Part shown: positions 53,892-62,232 of the stretch, one piece after another | Layout: each line of letters starts with the position of its first letter | How positions within the stretch are numbered: position 1 is the stretch's first letter | Source of the DNA: Magnetospirillum sp. XM-1 | GTDB lineage: Bacteria; Pseudomonadota; Alphaproteobacteria; Rhodospirillales; Magnetospirillaceae | Assembly (NCBI RefSeq): GCF_001511835.1 | Contig: NZ_LN997848.1 | Span: 2,880,001-2,944,000 of the forward strand | Reading direction: 5' to 3' | Length of the DNA: 64,000 nucleotides | Program-made: the position numbers and the translations under genes | The notes under the pieces: model-generated | Told to the model about the DNA's origin: nothing | Seen by the model: only the letters and a program-made list of their open reading frames with translations | The model's database searches: none

Positions 53892-53917
53892 AAGCCGCTG
53901 GGTTGCCCCAGCGGCTT
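53892..53917. terminator. Hairpin at the island edge
   Basis: Perfect 11-bp stem AAGCCGCTGGG / CCCAGCGGCTT with loop TTGC and A-rich bases before it. It lies upstream of both the kinase (minus) and the integrase (plus), so it does not end either gene. It may terminate a transcript lost when the island inserted, or be part of an attachment region. Confidence 0.6.
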
Positions 53918-53980
53918 GAGTTTAGGGAGGAAAGCTGCGGCTAAACCAACCCATTGAATTCCTTGATATACGCCAATTAT

Positions 53981-54016
53981 TGGGGGATAGTGTGGGGGGA
54001 AACGTGGGGGAAAGTG
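53981..54016 (+). repeat. Three tandem 12-bp repeats at the integrase start
   Basis: TGGGGGATAGTG, TGGGGGGAAACG and TGGGGGAAAGTG follow each other without gaps, sharing TGGGGG and a purine-rich tail. They span the integrase start codon. A regular ~12-bp repeat at this place fits recombinase arm-type or operator sites, or a slippage-prone start region. Confidence 0.65.
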
Positions 54017-55623
54017 CTGTGGCCTCTGGAATCCGCCAAGGAAAAATACCTTATCTGGTCAAAATTCGAGGCGTATATCATTACGAGAGAGATTTTGACC
54101 AAAAGATACGCGGGCTGGTGGAGTTTGAGGGGAGGCTCCTCGGTCGACGGGTTCGAAAGTCATTTAGTACCAGCGAACAATCTCGTGCATTGCTCGGTTA
54201 TACGGGCATTCATCTAACCATCGAAAAGGCCATTGAGGAGGCATGGAAAAGAACCAAGCCACCAAGGCGTCGAGTTTCCGAGATGGGGGTTGACGACATC
54301 TTGGGTGGGCTTTCGATACAATTTAAAACCGTTAAAATTGGCGGCACGGTTGATGACTTGATCGCTAATTTCGAAGCAACCCAATACGTTGAACTTTCTC
54401 CTCAGCTACGTAATAAGTTCCACGATCTTGCCATTGCTGCGGCCCGTTCGGCGGTGCGGGAGATGATGGTTAGTTTAAACTTTAATCCCGCCATCATTGC
54501 GGCTGGCAATTTTATTGATTCAAACCCCGATAGGGCTGCCCCACTTGCCAAAATCGTCTCTCTTAAAGACGCAATTGAAAAATTTAAAAGCAATCCTGAG
54601 CGGCAAGAATTGGCAACGTCGAATATCACAAATTATAGCACAATATGCGACGTTATTTTGGAGACTCTCGGGGGCAATACAAATGTCGCCTACATCAACC
54701 GCGATGATATCATTAGAGTCCGTGAGATAATCCGTTATTTGCCAGCAAATGCAAAAGAGAATCCAGCATTTTTTGGGATGACATATGAAGATATTTCAAA
54801 AATTATTAGGAGGGAGGTTGATGAGATAAGGTCCGAATCTGAGAAAGATGAAATCGGTGAGGATGACTTGCTTGATGCTATTCAGGGCCTTGGTGTTTTG
54901 AAAATTTCAACAATAAACAAATATCTAACAAACATGGGGACGGTTTTTGAGTTTTTTAGGGTGAATGGTTGGGTTCCGTTGAATCCTGCTGAAAGAATTA
55001 AGTTGAATGACAGTGGGTATCAATCAATCCGGGAGGCTTTTCCAGACGAAATGTTGGTCAAGCTATTTAACTGTAAATATAACTTTGATGGGATTGGCTG
55101 GTTGCCGTATCTCGCATTGTATCATGGGATGCGTGGAAACGAACTGGCACAACTTGATGTAACTGATGTTGTTCAAGAGGATGGGGTGTGGTGCTTCAAT
55201 GTGTCTCCAAGCATTCGGGTGTCGCATCTTATAGCCTTGTCAAAGACTGTGAAAAATAAGAAGCCGCGATTTGTCCCGATACACTCTCGGGCAATTGAGC
55301 GTGGGTTTCTTGATTACGTGGAGTCCAGAAGGGCAGGGGGGAAGTCGAAGATATTTGATGCGACAAAAATTAAGAGCGGAAACTATCTAACATCTCTGGC
55401 AAGTCAGATTGATGAAATCTTGGCCCCGGTCAAATCGCCACAGCATACATTGCATTCATTTCGGCATAATTTCGCCCAGCGGGCTGAACAAGTCATGGAA
55501 GACTCAATGTTAAAGACCTTGGGAGGTTGGTCTATGTCTAAGTCGGCGGATGAACGCTATAAGAAGGGGATACCCGTAAGCCATTTAAAGCAAGAGATCG
55601 AAAAAATAGTTTTTCCCGTGTAA
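53992..55623 (+). CDS. Tyrosine recombinase/phage-type integrase
   Basis: About 543 residues from GTG 53992 (TTG 53980 is an alternative). The N-terminus (IPYLVKIRGVYHYERDFDQ) resembles the arm/DUF6538 start of alphaproteobacterial integrases. A long helical middle leads to a SAM-like core-binding region (ISTINKYLTNMGTVFEFFRVNGW). The catalytic domain has Arg in YHGMRGNELAQLD, HxxR in HSFRHNFAQR, and the Tyr nucleophile in SADERYKKG near the C-terminus. A G+C content well below the chromosome and less biased codons indicate transfer. It should integrate or excise the island it borders. Confidence 0.9.
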   Translation: MGGNVGESAVASGIRQGKIPYLVKIRGVYHYERDFDQKIRGLVEFEGRLLGRRVRKSFSTSEQSRALLGYTGIHLTIEKAIEEAWKRTKPPRRRVSEMGVDDILGGLSIQFKTVKIGGTVDDLIANFEATQYVELSPQLRNKFHDLAIAAARSAVREMMVSLNFNPAIIAAGNFIDSNPDRAAPLAKIVSLKDAIEKFKSNPERQELATSNITNYSTICDVILETLGGNTNVAYINRDDIIRVREIIRYLPANAKENPAFFGMTYEDISKIIRREVDEIRSESEKDEIGEDDLLDAIQGLGVLKISTINKYLTNMGTVFEFFRVNGWVPLNPAERIKLNDSGYQSIREAFPDEMLVKLFNCKYNFDGIGWLPYLALYHGMRGNELAQLDVTDVVQEDGVWCFNVSPSIRVSHLIALSKTVKNKKPRFVPIHSRAIERGFLDYVESRRAGGKSKIFDATKIKSGNYLTSLASQIDEILAPVKSPQHTLHSFRHNFAQRAEQVMEDSMLKTLGGWSMSKSADERYKKGIPVSHLKQEIEKIVFPV

Positions 55624-55636
55624 TAATCTAACCATA

Positions 55637-56143
55637 CTAATTGGCACCACCCAAAGCCTTCGCCATCGACAGAACCTGATCCCGGACCTTGGGGTCACTG
55701 ATGCTGAAATAGGCCCGTACCAATTCGAGGGTTTCCCGCTTTGTCATGGGATTGTCGTCAGCGACATCGATTGCCTTGGTGACATTGCCCCGGATCACCT
55801 CGACCGGCGATGCTGCCTGGGCAATATCAGAGATTTCCTCAAAAAAGTAGCCAACCCGGACATCCAGAACACGGGACAGATCGAACAGCCTCGAAGCCCC
55901 CACCCGATTGGCTCCACGCTCGTATTTTTGGACCTGCTGGAAGGTCAGCCCCAGGCATTCACCCAACTTCTCCTGGCTCATGCCCAGAAGGGTCCGACGA
56001 AGCCGTATGCGGGCACCAACATGAACATCAATGGGATTGGCACTGCCGTCGTCCAATCGGCCACGGGTGGACCGGCCAGCCTTCTTGGCGACCTTGGCAG
56101 GCTTGGGTGCGGTTGCGGGCTTGGCACTCTTACGTGGCGGCAT
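55637..56143 (-). CDS. XRE-family helix-turn-helix regulator
   Basis: 168 residues starting [17 protein letters not shown] behind AAGGGATCACC. A basic Lys/Pro/Ala-rich tail (about 1-35) precedes the Cro/CI-type HTH (about 40-105): [33 protein letters not shown] (in part). A C-terminal helical domain ([16 protein letters not shown]) follows. This layout is common in alphaproteobacterial regulators. It is convergent with the integrase, 13 bp away, and followed upstream by mucR-like and HU-like genes, all minus. It may control the island, which is inference. Confidence 0.88.
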
Positions 56144-56163: not shown

Positions 56164-56577
56164 TCAGGTGGCTGATTTTGGCTTCCGGTTCGTCCGGGAA
56201 TAGCCCAGCCCAACAGCCTTCGCAAACTCTGATCTGCGTGCGGCGTATTCGGGAGCGACGAGGGGATAATCCTTGGGCAAAGCCCACTTGGTCCGGTACT
56301 CGTCGGCGGTCAGCCCGTGCCCAGTCGTGAGGTGTCGCTTGAGCATCTTCTGCCGATCACCGCATTCCAAACAGACAATGTAATCTGGGGTCACCGACCG
56401 CCTCACCGAAACGGCAGGTTGCTGCCGTTCAGCCGGTGCTGAAGCAGGGTTGTCCGTAGCGGCTAAAGTCGAATAAACGGACTTGATCAGGTTCGGAATT
56501 TCTGTGACCGCCAAGGTGTTGCTGCCCAAGTAGGCGGCAACAATCTTGGTGGTCAGAGCCTTGATGTCATCGGCCAT
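56164..56577 (-). CDS. MucR/Ros-type zinc-finger regulator
   Basis: 137 residues from ATG 56577 ([20 protein letters not shown]). The Ros zinc finger is [19 protein letters not shown], with the basic DNA-binding surface [22 protein letters not shown] that is near-invariant in the family. MucR proteins are H-NS-like regulators that bind A+T-rich DNA and often silence acquired genes. Its start overlaps the HU gene stop by 11 bp. Confidence 0.92.
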
Positions 56578-56845
56578 TGATGGTGTCCTTGAGGCTCTTT
56601 CCGGCGGTGAATTTGGCAGACTTGCTGGCCGCGATGGTGAGGGGCTTGCCAGTTTGCGGATTCCTGCCTTGACGGGCAGGACGGGCAGAAACCGAGAAGG
56701 TTCCAAAGCCAACCAGACGTACATCATCACCCGATTTCATGGCGGCGGTGACGGCTGCGAAAACGGCATCAATGGCACTTGCCGCGTCGGCCTTGGTCAT
56801 GTTGGCACCATCGGCGACGGCGGCGATCAATTCGGACTTGTTCAT
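56567..56845 (-). CDS. HU-family DNA-binding protein
   Basis: 92 residues starting [20 protein letters not shown]. The body has [25 protein letters not shown], the conserved HU core and DNA-inserting arm, and ends [10 protein letters not shown]. It bends and compacts DNA as a dimer. The 11-bp overlap with the MucR gene means both nucleoid-type proteins are made from one message. HU copies on mobile elements often assist recombination, but a direct role with the integrase is inference. Confidence 0.93.
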
Positions 56846-56904
56846 GTGCCCCTCCCTACCAAACAAAAACGGAATGACTAACAGCCATCATTTATCAAAC
56901 GGAT

Positions 56905-58002
56905 TCACTCAGGCGTCGGCAAGGTAAACAGGAAAGTCGAGCCGCCTGAAGGTGATTGCTCGACCCAAATCTCGCCCCCGTGCCGCTCGACAATCTTCTT
57001 GCAGACAGAAAGACCGATCCCTGTTCCCTCGTATACCTCTCGGGTATGAAGTCGCTTGAAAAGCAGAAAAATTCGGTCGAAGTATTCTGGTGCGATCCCG
57101 ATACCATTATCTTGAACAGAGAAGACCGCCTTCCCATCATCGAGACGAGCAGCGACGGCGATGTGGGGTCTTATCCCCTTTTTTCGATATTTGATGGCAT
57201 TCCCAATTAGGTTTTGGAAAAGCCGATCTAATTGGTGGCCATCCCCAACCACCATGAGCGAAGCATCCACATCGACGACCACGTGTGCATCACACTCGGA
57301 AATGGCTGTCCCAAGATTTCTCACGGCACGGGAAATGGCATCACCGATCCGCATCGGAACCAGTGGTTCTCCCTGTCTATCAATTCTGGAGAATGCAAGC
57401 AGGTCCAGAACCATCGCATCCATTCGCCGGGCACCGTCGCGGACGAAGCCAATAAATTCATGCCCATCTGCGTCAAAGTGATGTCCGTAGCGGCGTTCAA
57501 TCAGGTCAACATAGCTGCTGATCATACGGAGTGGCTCACGAAGATCATGGGATGCGACGTAGGCAAATTGCTCAAGTTCAGCGTTGGATGCCGCCAAATC
57601 CTTACAGGCAATTCCCAGTTTTTCTTCGCTCTCCCGTCTGACAGAGACATCAAAACAATAGCCGACATACCCGAGAAATTCGCCGGACTGGTTTTGAATA
57701 GGGATTCCGTAATCTATGATCCAACCGTATTCGCCACAGGCACGCTTGATGCGGTATTCCATGTCGAACGGATGACGAAGTGCGAAGGCATCTAGATAGA
57801 TTTTCAAGCAGCGATCAAAATCATCAGGATGGACACCTTCCGCCCATCCGTTCCCCATCTCTTGCTCCATTGTCCTGCCGGTATAGGCGAGCCATGCGGG
57901 GTTGAACCAATTGCATTTGGCATCGAGACCTGCACGCCAGATCAGAATCGGGGCAGCTTTTAGGAGTTCGAGATCAGGCCAGCCTGTGTTTGCAACAATC
58001 AT
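56905..58002 (-). CDS. Cytosolic PAS-histidine kinase (phytochrome-type kinase core)
   Basis: 365 residues starting MIVANTGWPDLELLKAAP. One PAS domain (about 10-125, APILIWRAGLDAKCNWFN and GYCFDVSVRRESEEKL) is followed by HisKA with His152 (YVASHDLREPLRMISSYVDL) and HATPase (NLIGNAIKYR, DNGIGIAPEYFDRIFLLFKRLH, GTGIGLSVCKKI). The HDLREPLRMI pattern is that of phytochrome-related kinases. There is no membrane segment. No cognate regulator is adjacent; the CheY-like gene at 62604 lies in the same island and is a possible but unproven partner. Confidence 0.9.
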   Translation of the reverse strand: MIVANTGWPDLELLKAAPILIWRAGLDAKCNWFNPAWLAYTGRTMEQEMGNGWAEGVHPDDFDRCLKIYLDAFALRHPFDMEYRIKRACGEYGWIIDYGIPIQNQSGEFLGYVGYCFDVSVRRESEEKLGIACKDLAASNAELEQFAYVASHDLREPLRMISSYVDLIERRYGHHFDADGHEFIGFVRDGARRMDAMVLDLLAFSRIDRQGEPLVPMRIGDAISRAVRNLGTAISECDAHVVVDVDASLMVVGDGHQLDRLFQNLIGNAIKYRKKGIRPHIAVAARLDDGKAVFSVQDNGIGIAPEYFDRIFLLFKRLHTREVYEGTGIGLSVCKKIVERHGGEIWVEQSPSGGSTFLFTLPTPE

Positions 58003-58062: not shown

Positions 58063-58431
58063 TCAAGCAAAATGGTCCGGAGATTTAGCACCTTCCATTG
58101 TGCACCGATCCCCAACGGACTCCTCCTTCACCCGGAGGATTCCTGCCTCCAATCCCGCAGCAATCACCGTGTCCGAAATGGCATCCTTGATCTCATCAGG
58201 CAGAATAATTGCGGCTTTCCATGAGCCATCTGGTGCCCGATATGTTGGCAAGGAAACCTCGGTACTTTTGTCATCAGCCCTCACCTTGACTCCTTGGATG
58301 ATCATCTCGATGCCATCAAAGACGACCTCAACATCAGCCAAGGCACGTAGCTTACCGGCATTCTTCACTTCGGTGATGCCGATTGCCGATACAGTAATCG
58401 ATGCAGTGTCCATGGTCGGATTTACCTTCAT
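58063..58431 (-). CDS. SpoVG-like protein, copy 1
   Basis: 122 residues from ATG 58431 (MKVNPTMDTASITVSAIG); ATG 58434 is equally possible, with GGAG just before. The core, LRALADVEVVFDGIEMIIQG, VSLPTYRAPDGSWKAAIILP and a closing helix, follows the SpoVG strand pattern (…A.v.ld....I…P..r..dG.wkd…hP). SpoVG is an RNA- or DNA-binding regulator in Firmicutes; this relative is divergent, so the function is not transferable. It is about 54% identical (46 of 85 by hand) to the copy at 61885. A small partner gene lies 155 bp upstream. Confidence 0.65.
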   Translation of the reverse strand: MKVNPTMDTASITVSAIGITEVKNAGKLRALADVEVVFDGIEMIIQGVKVRADDKSTEVSLPTYRAPDGSWKAAIILPDEIKDAISDTVIAAGLEAGILRVKEESVGDRCTMEGAKSPDHFA

Positions 58432-58586
58432 CATCTCCGCCTTGATGGCATAAGCCGAATACGATAACCTTTTCTGGTGGCATCCCCCCGATGCGGCCAC
58501 ATCTGGATAGATCACCCCCGTAAACTTGATCCATCCAGCACGATCCGGCGGTGGAGTTCTTACCAGTTCTCCACCGCCGACCTGTT

Positions 58587-58814
58587 TTACGGCTCGTTCC
58601 GAATCACAGGCACAGCCACAAAGTACTCCGGGTCTTCCAGGGTGCGAATCGACACCATTAGTGTCTCGTGCCTGTTCACCAGCCGGGCATGCGGAACCCC
58701 ATCAACGGCCGTCCAAAGCCGTGACACCTCCCACACCTTTCTGGTCGGATCGTTGGCTTTCATGAACAAGTCACCGACTTGGATGGGGGGAGTTTTTCGT
58801 CCGAATATTGCCAT
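58587..58814 (-). CDS. Small uncharacterised protein, module copy 1
   Basis: 75 residues starting MAIFGRKTPPIQVGDLFMKAND. It is predicted to be mostly short strands, with the pattern VWEVSRLWTAVDGVPHARLVN and LEDPEYFVAVPV, like small SH3-type beta-barrels. The same block occurs at 61440 (RK-P-IQ-G--F-KA-DP-RK-W-V-R-W--VDG-PHARL). No Cys or metal motif is present and no family name is known to me. It lies 26 bp downstream of the GGDEF-hemerythrin gene on the same strand. Confidence 0.72.
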   Translation of the reverse strand: MAIFGRKTPPIQVGDLFMKANDPTRKVWEVSRLWTAVDGVPHARLVNRHETLMVSIRTLEDPEYFVAVPVIRNEP

Positions 58815-58839
58815 GTTCGCCCAACCTGCCTGCCCGAAA

Positions 58840-60726
58840 TTATACCGCCGTGTCGCGAACTGCCTGGATGTGCCCAAAGAACTTTCGATCTTCGGACAGC
58901 ATGTGCTTTGCCACCACGTCATAGGCCAGAAAATTGAACAGGTCGCCCAAGGCCAGTTCGCCGGATGTGAAAATCGCCACCAATTCCCCGGCACGGTCGA
59001 TTAGACCCTGGTGGGTTTGGGCATGTTCATCAGCACCGGAATATCCTATCGAGCGGAAAACTGCTTCTTCATCCCGGAAATGATCCAGAAGGTCCGAAAC
59101 AAGTGCTTCGATCTGAGGTGCCACCTCATCGGTTGGTCGCTCTCCGATGACTGCTATCAGCAAATTATTTGCGTGTTCGAATAGATTTCGGTGCTGCGTA
59201 TCGAGCAAAGCATGGCCGGACTCGTAGGTGCTCCTCCAGACCAGACGTAGAAACGAGAGATCGAGAAGCTCTGCCTCATCGGCTTCATCAGCCTCGCAGG
59301 CATCGGTTACGACTCGGTTCCTCCCACCTTCCTTTGCCGCGTAAAGGGCTGCATCAGAACGGCATAGCCAAGATTCCCATGTTTCATCTTCACGGTATTC
59401 GGCGACGCCGAAGCTGGCGGTAACACGGCCAACACCAGGAAAATCGTAGGCCATAACCGCCTTGCGGATTCGTTCTGCAAGCAGGATTGCTATCATCAGC
59501 CCACTGTTGGGGGTAACGATCACAAACTCTTCACCGCCCCAACGTCCGAGCAGATCGGTGGAACGCATGCACTTTTGGGCGATGTCACAAAATGTCTTCA
59601 GAACTTCATCGCCTACAGCATGGCCATAGCCGTCATTGACCCTCTTGAAGTGGTCCAGATCGATAAAGATCAATGAAACAGGGTGACCATATCGCGAATT
59701 TCGGAGCATTTCCTGTTGGGCAGATTCTTCGATTCTGATGCGGCTCCAAGCCCCGGTCAGAGTGTCATGCCGGGCCAAGTGCTCCAGTTCTTCTCGGGCG
59801 GCAACAAGTTCGGCATTCGATGCAGCAAGGGCCGCAACGGTTTTGGAGAGTTCCTGGTTTAAAACTTCGAGTTCGTGGCTACGTTCGGCCAGATGCTGTT
59901 CCGCGATCTTGCGTTCGGTGATGTCAGAAACAACGCACACCAGACCGGCACGACCATCCCTATAAGCAGGCATATGACGGGCCGTCAGTTGCCCCCAAAA
60001 TGCGGTACCATTCGACCGCCAATAATGCCGCTCCAAGTTGACGTTGGGCCTGTCCTGGAGCAGATGATCCGCCATATTCTTTCGGGCTGCTTCCTGCTCT
60101 ACGGGATCGACCAGATCGACGTATTCCATACCAATCAGCGACTCCGATTGGATCATAAACATTTCCGCCATCCGTTGGTTGGCCGCACCAATCCGGCCAC
60201 TGGAATCGATGGTGAAAATGGCCACACTGGAATTGTCGAAAATCAGCCGCAGCAGCCCCTCCTTGTCACGAAGGGTTTCCTCGGCTTCACGTCGTTCAGT
60301 GATGTCCGTGTACAGGGTTATGAATCCACCGCTCGGAAGTGGCTGGCCTGAAATTTCCAGAATGGTTCCATCAGGCCGAACACGCTCGAATTGGTGTGGC
60401 TTCATCGCCATTGCTCTCTGGACAACCTGCCCAGCGAGTTCCCCTGGGTCACCTGGACCGTATTCACCACGTCGTGCGTTGAACATGGCCAGGGATTTCA
60501 TGGAGGGCAGGCTGCCTTCAAACAATTGGTCAGGGAAATCCAGCAGCCGTCTGAACAGGCCGTTGCAGGCAATCATTTCCAGATTCTGATCGAACAGCGT
60601 TACGCCGCACGGAAGGTGATCGATGATCGACTGGATGATGTGGCGGCATTCTGGAGAACTGGCGAGCATCAGCAAGCCGCTGATGCCGCTATGTTCAACT
60701 TGCTGGCTGGCCCAATTTTCAGACAT
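58840..60726 (-). CDS. PAS-PAS-GGDEF-hemerythrin diguanylate cyclase
   Basis: 628 residues, no membrane segments. Order: PAS (about 30-150, IIDHLPCGVTLFDQNLEMIA), PAS (about 160-275, IFDNSSVAIFTIDSSGRIGA), a coiled coil (about 276-325), GGDEF (about 325-490), and a C-terminal hemerythrin-like domain (about 500-628). The GGDEF signature is GGEEF near 397, with the inhibitory RxxD (RSTD) a few residues before it. Hemerythrin iron ligands fit DTQHRNLFEH, HFRDEEAVF, EHAQTHQGL and YDVVAKHML. It should make c-di-GMP in response to oxygen bound at the diiron site. Confidence 0.92.
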   Translation of the reverse strand: MSENWASQQVEHSGISGLLMLASSPECRHIIQSIIDHLPCGVTLFDQNLEMIACNGLFRRLLDFPDQLFEGSLPSMKSLAMFNARRGEYGPGDPGELAGQVVQRAMAMKPHQFERVRPDGTILEISGQPLPSGGFITLYTDITERREAEETLRDKEGLLRLIFDNSSVAIFTIDSSGRIGAANQRMAEMFMIQSESLIGMEYVDLVDPVEQEAARKNMADHLLQDRPNVNLERHYWRSNGTAFWGQLTARHMPAYRDGRAGLVCVVSDITERKIAEQHLAERSHELEVLNQELSKTVAALAASNAELVAAREELEHLARHDTLTGAWSRIRIEESAQQEMLRNSRYGHPVSLIFIDLDHFKRVNDGYGHAVGDEVLKTFCDIAQKCMRSTDLLGRWGGEEFVIVTPNSGLMIAILLAERIRKAVMAYDFPGVGRVTASFGVAEYREDETWESWLCRSDAALYAAKEGGRNRVVTDACEADEADEAELLDLSFLRLVWRSTYESGHALLDTQHRNLFEHANNLLIAVIGERPTDEVAPQIEALVSDLLDHFRDEEAVFRSIGYSGADEHAQTHQGLIDRAGELVAIFTSGELALGDLFNFLAYDVVAKHMLSEDRKFFGHIQAVRDTAV

Positions 60727-60949
60727 TTCGGATATCGGCCGGTTCCAATTTCCGCCATCAAAAGTTCTATCAAAAGTATGGTTGAGCTATGTCCGTGGGG
60801 TCAATCCTAAGTGCCACCGGGTTCCCGTGTTGTTACAAGTCGTCGCAAATCCAATGCCGATATGCACGACTGCCCATGCCACCATTCTTGCTGGCGGTCG
60901 CCATTTCCTGAATGATTGCCCTGGATATTGATAGGGGGGAGGCGATCCA

Positions 60950-61414
60950 ATGCGATGCCCGTTTTGCGGCCAGGACGATACTCAGGTGAAGGATTCACGC
61001 CCGACCGATGATAATGCGGCCATCCGTCGCCGCAGAGCTTGTCCAGGGTGTGGATCACGGTTCACCACCTTCGAACGGGTTCAAATCCGTGATCTGGTCG
61101 TGGTCAAAAAGGACGGATCACGCTCGACCTTCGACCGGGAGAAAGTGGTCAAGTCTCTCCAGATCGCCCTGCGTAAACGCCCTGTCGAAGATGATCAGAT
61201 CGAACGGATTGCCAATGGCATCTACCGCCGCCTTGAGAGCCTGGGGGAGAACGAGGTTCCGTCCAAGCTCATCGGCGAACTGGTCATGGACGTGCTGATG
61301 GAACTCGATCAGGTCGCCTATTTGCGGTACGCCTCGGTCTACCGGAACTTCCGCGAAGCCAAGGATTTCGGGGATTTCCTGGGAAAGATGGGACGCAGTA
61401 GCGGTGATAACTGA
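60950..61414 (+). CDS. nrdR: NrdR-like transcriptional repressor
   Basis: 154 residues, full NrdR length. The N-terminal zinc ribbon is [18 protein letters not shown] with [16 protein letters not shown]. The ATP-cone follows ([21 protein letters not shown]) and ends [18 protein letters not shown]. NrdR represses ribonucleotide reductase genes by binding NrdR boxes when ATP/dATP is bound. NrdR is usually a chromosomal gene beside glyA or ribD. Here it stands inside the island, so it is probably an additional copy, though this cannot be confirmed from this window. Confidence 0.94.
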
Positions 61415-61439
61415 AGCGGCATATTGAAGGTCAAGCTGA

Positions 61440-61676
61440 ATGGGACTGTTTAAACGGAAACTTCCTGCGATTCAGCCGGGATGCAGGTTTGTGAAGGCCG
61501 GTGATCCACCCCGCAAGGCTTGGGTTGTGACGCGGGTCTGGGAAACAGTGGACGGCATTCCCCATGCCCGATTGGAAAACTGCATCCAGCAGAGCGAATC
61601 GCGGCTCGTCTCTATCTCGGTGCTGAACGATCCTGAATTCTTCATACCTGCGGCAGAGCCAACGGTTGAACCGTGA
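61440..61676 (+). CDS. Small uncharacterised protein, module copy 2
   Basis: 78 residues starting MGLFKRKLPAIQPGCRFVKAGD. It is homologous to the 75-residue protein at 58587, with shared VDGIPHARL and DPEFF. A four-residue insertion lies in the middle (CIQQSESRL). It is 26 bp behind nrdR and reads toward a SpoVG-like gene, so the module orientation is opposite to copy 1. Confidence 0.72.
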   Translation: MGLFKRKLPAIQPGCRFVKAGDPPRKAWVVTRVWETVDGIPHARLENCIQQSESRLVSISVLNDPEFFIPAAEPTVEP

Positions 61677-61884
61677 GAAGGCAGAGGGTTTAAAAGGTTC
61701 GGCGGCGTCGAACTGGCGAGAAATCCACCGCCGAACCGTTCAAATACCGGATAAATGCGGAGGAAAGCATCCAACCCGGTGGTGGCTGTTCGTCTTGGGA
61801 GGGAGCCACCAGGGAATTGAACCTCAGTACGATCATTTTAAAAAGAGCAGGGGAAGAAGCCTTCCTGCCGAATGCAAATTTGCT

Positions 61885-62232
61885 ATGATCCCGATCATGG
61901 ATACCCCCTCCGAGGAAACCACAGAAGTTTCCCAGGTCAACATTGAACTTCTCGACTTCACGCCCATGAAGAATGCGGGAAGCTTGTTGGCTTTAGCCGA
62001 TGTCGCACTCATGCTGGATGGCGTTGAGATCATCATCCATGGGGTTCAGGTTCGAGCGGACTTTCGCAACACCAGAATTTCACTCCCGAAATTCCGAGCG
62101 AGCAGCGGCGAATGGAAGCCAGCCATCACGCTACCTGAAGAGGTTCGATATCCGATGGCTGACATTATAATTGCCGCTGGGATTGAGGCTGGCATCCTAC
62201 AGCCGAGAGATGTCGAAAAATCGGAGGTTTAG
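61885..62232 (+). CDS. SpoVG-like protein, copy 2
   Basis: 115 residues from ATG 61885 (MIPIMDTPSEETTEVS) or 111 from ATG 61897. The core LLALADVALMLDGVEIIIHGVQ and ISLPKFRASSGEWKPAITLP with IIAAGIEAGIL matches the copy at 58063. The ~220 bases before it contain an in-frame extension unlike protein, so the shorter start is preferred. Function unknown; see copy 1. Confidence 0.65.
   Translation: MIPIMDTPSEETTEVSQVNIELLDFTPMKNAGSLLALADVALMLDGVEIIIHGVQVRADFRNTRISLPKFRASSGEWKPAITLPEEVRYPMADIIIAAGIEAGILQPRDVEKSEV

Follow-up and report, generated by a model that had tools for sequence, protein, structure and literature searches.

SpoVG is known as a regulator that binds nucleic acids in sporulating bacteria and in pathogens; the proteins of Borrelia and Staphylococcus bind DNA sites, and in S. 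aureus a conserved basic doublet, K50-R51, is needed for DNA binding (PMC3688583). The Listeria protein binds RNAs, one of them via an apical loop, and mutation of the apical loop of Rli31 lowered binding 2- to 4-fold; Rli31 also binds the 5' untranslated region of spoVG and left the amounts of SpoVG unchanged (PMC4959528). Here we describe a SpoVG-like gene that occurs together with a small gene for a predicted SH3-barrel-like protein, twice, in a 64,000-nucleotide stretch of Magnetospirillum sp. XM-1 (the window, positions 2880001-2944000 of the 4.83-Mb contig NZ_LN997848.1; coordinates are window positions unless marked genome). The pair is a real, recurring, island-borne module, and the spacer between its two genes carries a conserved hairpin element.

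In copy 1, on the minus strand, the small gene (58587..58814) is followed by the SpoVG-like gene (58063..58431); in copy 2, on the plus strand, the small gene occupies 61440..61676 and the SpoVG-like gene 61885..62232. A two-gene module in duplicate on opposite strands had been proposed by a sequence-only reading of the window, and all four open reading frames (ORFs) were found where it had placed them, those of copy 2 being recovered by the genome search as well. The order that it gave, small gene first, held for both pairs. Pairwise comparison showed 51 of 107 identical residues for the two SpoVG-like proteins (expectation value E 1e-35, a single comparison), in agreement with an earlier hand count of 46 of 85, and 37 of 69 for the two small proteins (E 3e-26). 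With these E values the likeness of the two pairs is not a matter of chance. ORF and Pfam scans also bore out that the pairs flank a PAS-GGDEF-hemerythrin gene and nrdR. The interpretation drawn from the letters is supported in part: the repeated pairing stands, and binding of nucleic acid by one or both proteins is taken up below as a tentative proposal. Invisible in the letters of the window were the further copies in the genome, the repetition of whole blocks at the DNA level, a 39-bp repeat and the hairpins of the spacers.

A search of the own genome at E <= 1 gave 11 matches for the small protein, 8 of which reached E <= 1.4e-11, and 9 for the SpoVG-like protein; five places held both genes, the small gene first and on the same strand. 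Among 17 genomes of the same genus, searched at E <= 1e-6, there were 83 hits of the small protein (17/17 genomes) and 64 of the SpoVG-like protein (13/17), of which 19 and 20, respectively, lay within 2 kb of each other. Sixteen tight same-strand pairs were found in 7 of these genomes, with the matched stretches 158-251 bp apart; chance alone would give 0.18 pairs at distances of up to 1 kb in a genome of 4.6 Mb. Many of the tight pairs are near-copies and therefore represent fewer independent events than 16. Both genes and their spacer might be seen as passive co-travellers, kept together by the block copying of islands, a view in line with the majority of hits of both genes being unpaired, with block copies that are 86-98% identical over kilobases and with the single tight clade formed by the paired SpoVG sequences called type 1. 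Copies 1 and 2, however, are identical at only about half of their residues and yet have kept gene order and hairpin, and we regard passive co-travel as unlikely.

When spacers were compared for 15 of the 16 tight pairs, they were seen to share a hairpin 1 just past the stop codon of the small gene, followed by hairpin 2 and a weaker hairpin 3. The element of copy 1, about 116 nucleotides (nt) long (58474..58589, minus strand; genome 2938474-2938589), scored 134.8 bits with an RNA covariance model and that of copy 2 (61690..61812, plus strand; genome 2941690-2941812) 64 bits (E 1.6e-10), each being itself a row of the model. Built from 11 spacers and applied to 150 of several thousand candidate places per genome, the model found 26 elements in 10 of the 17 same-genus genomes, the weakest at E 6.3e-6; these comprise the 11 model rows, 5 copies or near-copies of them and 10 new elements. 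Twenty-three share the strand of a small gene and lie behind it, 22 of these within 16 nt and one at 1124 nt, across an inserted transposase-like gene; in genome G007 (L198 3130-4158) a transposase-like gene, presumably of the IS1595 type by its look, sits in the 3' part of the small gene and separates the element. In 17 of the 26 cases the element is 5' of a SpoVG hit. The hairpin-1 pattern, searched with up to 3 mismatches, occurred five times in the own genome, solely at the five pairs, and in paired copies the hairpin-1 loop is conserved in sequence, beyond pairing.

Of 55 genomes of the family, 38 belong to other genera; in these a second model (25 of the 26 elements, stricter filters) gave no confident element, the best match having E 0.014. 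The hairpin set matches no RNA family catalogued in Rfam 15: the scan at gathering scores of window 50-64 kb returned only a tRNA, a relaxed scan of copy 1 returned one overlapping match at chance level (14 vs 80 bits, E 2.3), and relaxed scans of loci L161, L159, L175 and L177 returned nothing at the element. A tRNA match was noted at L161 277-391, about 1.1 kb from an element linked to an XRE-like gene. Two other candidates were rejected, namely an intrinsic terminator, as the terminator scan showed no site at either element of the window, and a conserved reading frame across the spacer, as by eye the matching peptide stretch lies in differing frames relative to SpoVG from one copy to another.

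Covariation was analysed in 25 of the 26 elements (20 distinct rows), L176, a near-copy of copy 2, being left out. Pairing was present in 89.6% of cells, compared with 84.9% after shuffling. Changes on both sides were seen in 12 of 35 pairs (5.8 shuffled) and 34 cells were double-changed (8.5 shuffled), values that none of 500 shuffles reached, and with structures slid by 1-3 columns the counts did not exceed 5 pairs and 11 cells. The rows had been aligned to the structure of the model, which favours that structure. In an independent MAFFT alignment of 11 rows 5 of 35 pairs were double-changed, and when the larger alignment was folded independently, hairpins 1 and 2 were kept, with 16 pairs in all, 6 of which showed double changes. 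Compensation of this kind points to selection acting on the stems and speaks against mere co-travel. The fold z score was -3.67 for copy 1 (58432-58586) and, for copy 2, -2.77 for the element and -1.86 for the whole spacer.

The SpoVG fold, on which the sequence-only reading had staked its assignment, is present in the predicted structure of the SpoVG-like protein. Scores with Pfam PF04026 were 26.3 bits for copy 1 and 13.7 bits for copy 2 (E 0.072 for copy 2 alone), both below the gathering score of 29.6. The subfamily was found in 10 of 150 genomes of the order, among them 6 of the genus and 3 more of the family. Unpaired SpoVG-like genes adjoin a gene for a PLD-type nuclease (L017 15440-16925; L024 10698-11437, the latter named by likeness), and in L017 the unpaired gene also adjoins an exonuclease gene.

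For the small protein, no Pfam or NCBIfam family was found up to E 10 and no PDB sequence up to E 1. Its structure was predicted with a pLDDT (predicted local distance difference test) of 84.5, and the model had no Foldseek match at E <= 0.001. CarD was the top structural row with a Z inside the noise range given by the tool, and a CarD-like function was set aside for this reason. The family, which is without an entry in Pfam or NCBIfam, is widespread in Alphaproteobacteria: of 150 genomes of the order 70 contain a match, 7 of them being genomes of the genus, as do 33 of 289 genomes of the class; the named relatives (13 loci) belong to Paramagnetospirillum, Magnetospirillum, Terasakiella sp. 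PR1, Phaeospirillum and Telmatospirillum. Outside the genus the neighbours listed for unpaired small genes vary and gave no clue by eye. In three same-genus genomes (L040, L043, L044) an unpaired small gene lies near a gene resembling carD and, in two of the three, also one resembling rplQ, to judge from the sequences.

What the sequences themselves show is the gene order, the setting on islands and a hairpin set that is conserved and covaries, while the SpoVG fold comes from structure prediction. On this basis we tentatively place the pair in the middle of a regulatory cassette of Magnetospirillum and Paramagnetospirillum islands, in which a hairpin RNA would be bound by the cassette's own protein in an autoregulatory manner. 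The element would be transcribed as a spacer or leader 5' of the regulator genes of the island, the SpoVG-like protein, the small barrel protein or both would bind it, and binding would set the expression of the regulators behind it, which amounts to autoregulation of the island's control genes. Such a mechanism is the most economical reading and a possible one, to which we give somewhat less than even weight. More doubtful is a broader version, in which the hairpins would be a structured leader RNA of a new class, restricted to one genus and borne mainly on its islands. A diverged SpoVG, acting together with its SH3-barrel partner, would have this RNA as its dedicated target, and the RNA would set the balance of the HU, MucR, XRE and signalling genes of the island as an RNA-based switch of the lysogeny type.

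Several observations weigh against the regulatory mechanism. Among 86 relatives, aligned position 64 (K50 of S. aureus, one of the two basic residues needed for DNA binding) holds Tyr in 83 and Phe in the other 3, and never K or R; position 65 (R51) is R in 86/86. The subfamily is also acidic, with a median net charge of -4. Six elements stand behind a small gene but have no SpoVG hit on their downstream side (behind one of them, in G015, a SpoVG-like remnant was seen by eye), and three have neither a small nor a SpoVG gene and lie between an unrelated ORF of some 100 residues and, 3' of the element, an XRE-like gene (L194, ~4081; L195, ~4899; L196, ~4742). Decay of the hairpins tracks loss of SpoVG in only half of ten such copies. 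In favour of the mechanism, no intact SpoVG gene is left in any of the five rows (4 distinct) that make up a degenerate type, and in the 10 of 25 rows that were folded, z was -0.5 and -1.0 for two of these degenerate rows and -2.1 to -5.3 for eight others. Against it, hairpins are kept in L169, where SpoVG is absent, in L153, L164 and L165, where it is truncated, and in L159, where a remnant is left. A fifth covariation measure, further pair types, stood at 24 vs 20.6 and was reached by 33 of 500 shuffles. Support for hairpin 3 is weak, its outer helix showing no double change and only two of its pairs being kept in the independent fold.

The mismatches in the stems bear on a further alternative, namely that the hairpins act as DNA rather than as RNA, forming a palindromic operator or a cruciform that would serve HU, MucR, XRE, integrase or a transfer protein. 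When all 20 distinct rows are counted, G-U (33) and A-C (35) are about equally frequent, with 544 of 1000 shuffles differing as much, a result that goes against a pure RNA reading and makes a role at the DNA level possible; HU, MucR and XRE are moreover encoded in the cassette of the window, and the DNA sites of SpoVG cited at the outset point in the same direction. The 15 type-1 rows (11 distinct) contain 25 G-U and 2 A-C mismatches, as expected of a sense-strand RNA, and the degenerate rows 4 and 17, the split into the two types having been made after the count over all rows and not on an independent set. This strand asymmetry of the type-1 rows, the single orientation relative to the small gene (23/23) and the interior of an operon, an unusual position for an operator, speak against a DNA site, which we consider very unlikely.

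Alternatively, the hairpins might be an element for RNase processing or mRNA stability that uncouples expression upstream and downstream and is read by neither protein. In line with this, the element begins at or right after the stop of the small gene, between same-strand genes, in a place where the scan saw no terminator, and it persists 5' of HU and XRE genes where SpoVG is absent. A generic processing element would, however, be expected behind many genes, whereas all instances seen in the own genome, where the covariance model scored 150 of 7828 candidate places, stood behind small genes, and the sequence conservation of the hairpin-1 loop goes beyond what pairing explains. We therefore hold this possibility to be somewhat unlikely and keep autoregulation through the element as the preferred reading.

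Copy 1 belongs to a same-strand run on the minus strand that is headed by the PAS-GGDEF-hemerythrin gene (58840..60726, Pfam scan) and continues, past the small and SpoVG-like genes, with a PAS histidine kinase (56905..58002; Pfam PAS_3, HisKA and HATPase_c), an HU-type DNA-binding protein (56567..56866; Bac_DNA_binding, E 7.7e-33), a ROS/MucR-type regulator (56164..56730; ROS_MUCR, E 3.1e-46; the longest ORF, with the true start probably nearer 56577) and an XRE-type helix-turn-helix regulator (55637..56143; HTH_3, E 1.9e-10; start presumably at the in-frame methionine of MPPRKSAK). In a relative, L199, the small gene, element, HU, MucR and XRE are present and SpoVG and the kinase are absent, the names being given by likeness to the window proteins. 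At four other loci SpoVG is absent and a kinase-like gene comes next, that of the own genome being identified by scan. Scripted gene calls came from a crude caller based on length and composition, not a trained one.

Between the two pairs lies nrdR (60950..61414, plus strand; Pfam scan), one of three copies in the genome. Two are island copies (the window copy and L019 7182-7643) with identical matched residues, and the third (genome 3101910) is 84% identical to them. NrdR is a repressor of ribonucleotide reductase, and its gene seems unusual on an island. In an all-against-all comparison of extracted stretches (pieces of at least 80 bases), the copy-1 block (55.6-61.4 kb) matched pieces of genome 2832-2837 kb at 88-98% identity, genome 461-466 kb at 94-95% and genome 4767-4770 kb at 86-88%; a further match, at genome 2353-2357 kb (78-91%), is partial. 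The matches stop at nrdR and copy 2 therefore lies outside the repeat. The SpoVG gene of copy 2 resembles two unpaired SpoVG genes of its own genome more closely than it does copy 1, and the two SpoVG copies are deep separate lineages in the tree. On these grounds we rejected the idea that the pair was duplicated recently, and in a simple manner, inside the window. This tree, made from 33 SpoVG-like rows (12 paired) out of the 64 hits, placed the paired sequences in two groups, the tight type-1 clade and a long copy-2 branch, with two changes of the paired label; one origin was seen in 6% of 200 bootstrap trees. Both the type-1 clade and the copy-2 branch carry the hairpin element, and the two pair types may have a single origin.

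A perfect 39-bp direct repeat is present at genome 2933895 and 2973302; its left copy (53895..53933), a probable attachment site, has its partner at genome 2973302-2973340, outside the window. The ORF of a tyrosine integrase (53980..55623, plus strand; Phage_integrase, E 1.2e-6) begins 46 bp inside the left repeat. With the repeats at these positions and the integrase just inside them, both pairs lie in one 39.4-kb island, which has its integrase gene at one end and direct repeats at its flanks. The G+C content, in 2-kb steps, was 61-73% in the window up to genome 2934 kb and 40-54% from there to about 2973 kb. Since the inner 33 bp of the repeat (up to 3 mismatches) recurs in 12 of the 17 same-genus genomes, singly in four and doubly in eight, with copies on one contig spaced 1.3 to 39 kb apart (loci L203-L222), the repeat is likely an attachment or insertion hot spot of the genus. 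Sister island B is flanked by a 17-bp direct repeat; for islands C, D and E no direct repeat of at least 14 bp was found in the stretches tried. Pfam scans covered 40 proteins from the 193 ORFs called in five islands. Among these, this and the sister islands encode further integrase-like, restriction-modification and UmuD/UmuC-type genes, as well as hemerythrin, GGDEF, MCP and kinase genes, and no relaxase, type IV secretion or other conjugation family was seen. In another island (L017 5814-6451) a TumE-type toxin gene and an adjacent helix-turn-helix gene lie beside the integrase. A phage origin was rejected, neither protein occurring in 50,697 phage records and the viral contigs containing neither a relative of the small protein nor the hairpin pattern; so was a plasmid origin, as plasmids gave only two distant SpoVG relatives, from Azospirillum, and no small protein.

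A search of one literature collection returned no paper linking SpoVG with Magnetospirillum and none naming amb2183, amb2184 or amb2077; the islands themselves may have been described earlier. In the module, a relative of SpoVG is combined with conserved hairpins and with a small partner, and nature offers many variants of the set. Should the SpoVG-like protein bind the element, this would be a compact system for learning what SpoVG recognizes. The small family, for its part, gains a fold by prediction, a range of occurrence and a setting in which it can be tested.

Compared with known systems, the likeness of the small protein to the CarD/CdnL RNA-polymerase-binding domain and to other Tudor/SH3 barrels stays within the noise in Z, with no Foldseek or PDB sequence match. 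With integrative islands of the tyrosine-integrase type the present one shares integrase, flanking direct repeat and low G+C, and its sister islands restriction-modification; it differs in that no conjugation family was seen among the 40 island proteins scanned. Unlike the SpoVG proteins of PF04026 (B. subtilis, S. epidermidis, Listeria, Borrelia), the SpoVG-like protein scores below the cut-off, has Tyr/Phe-Arg instead of K50-R51, and is encoded on islands together with a small partner gene and hairpins. The likeness to Listeria SpoVG and Rli31 lies in the combination of a SpoVG protein with a structured RNA, the element here being a predicted RNA; whereas Rli31 is a separate RNA, the structured element here stands directly 5' of the gene whose product is proposed to bind it.

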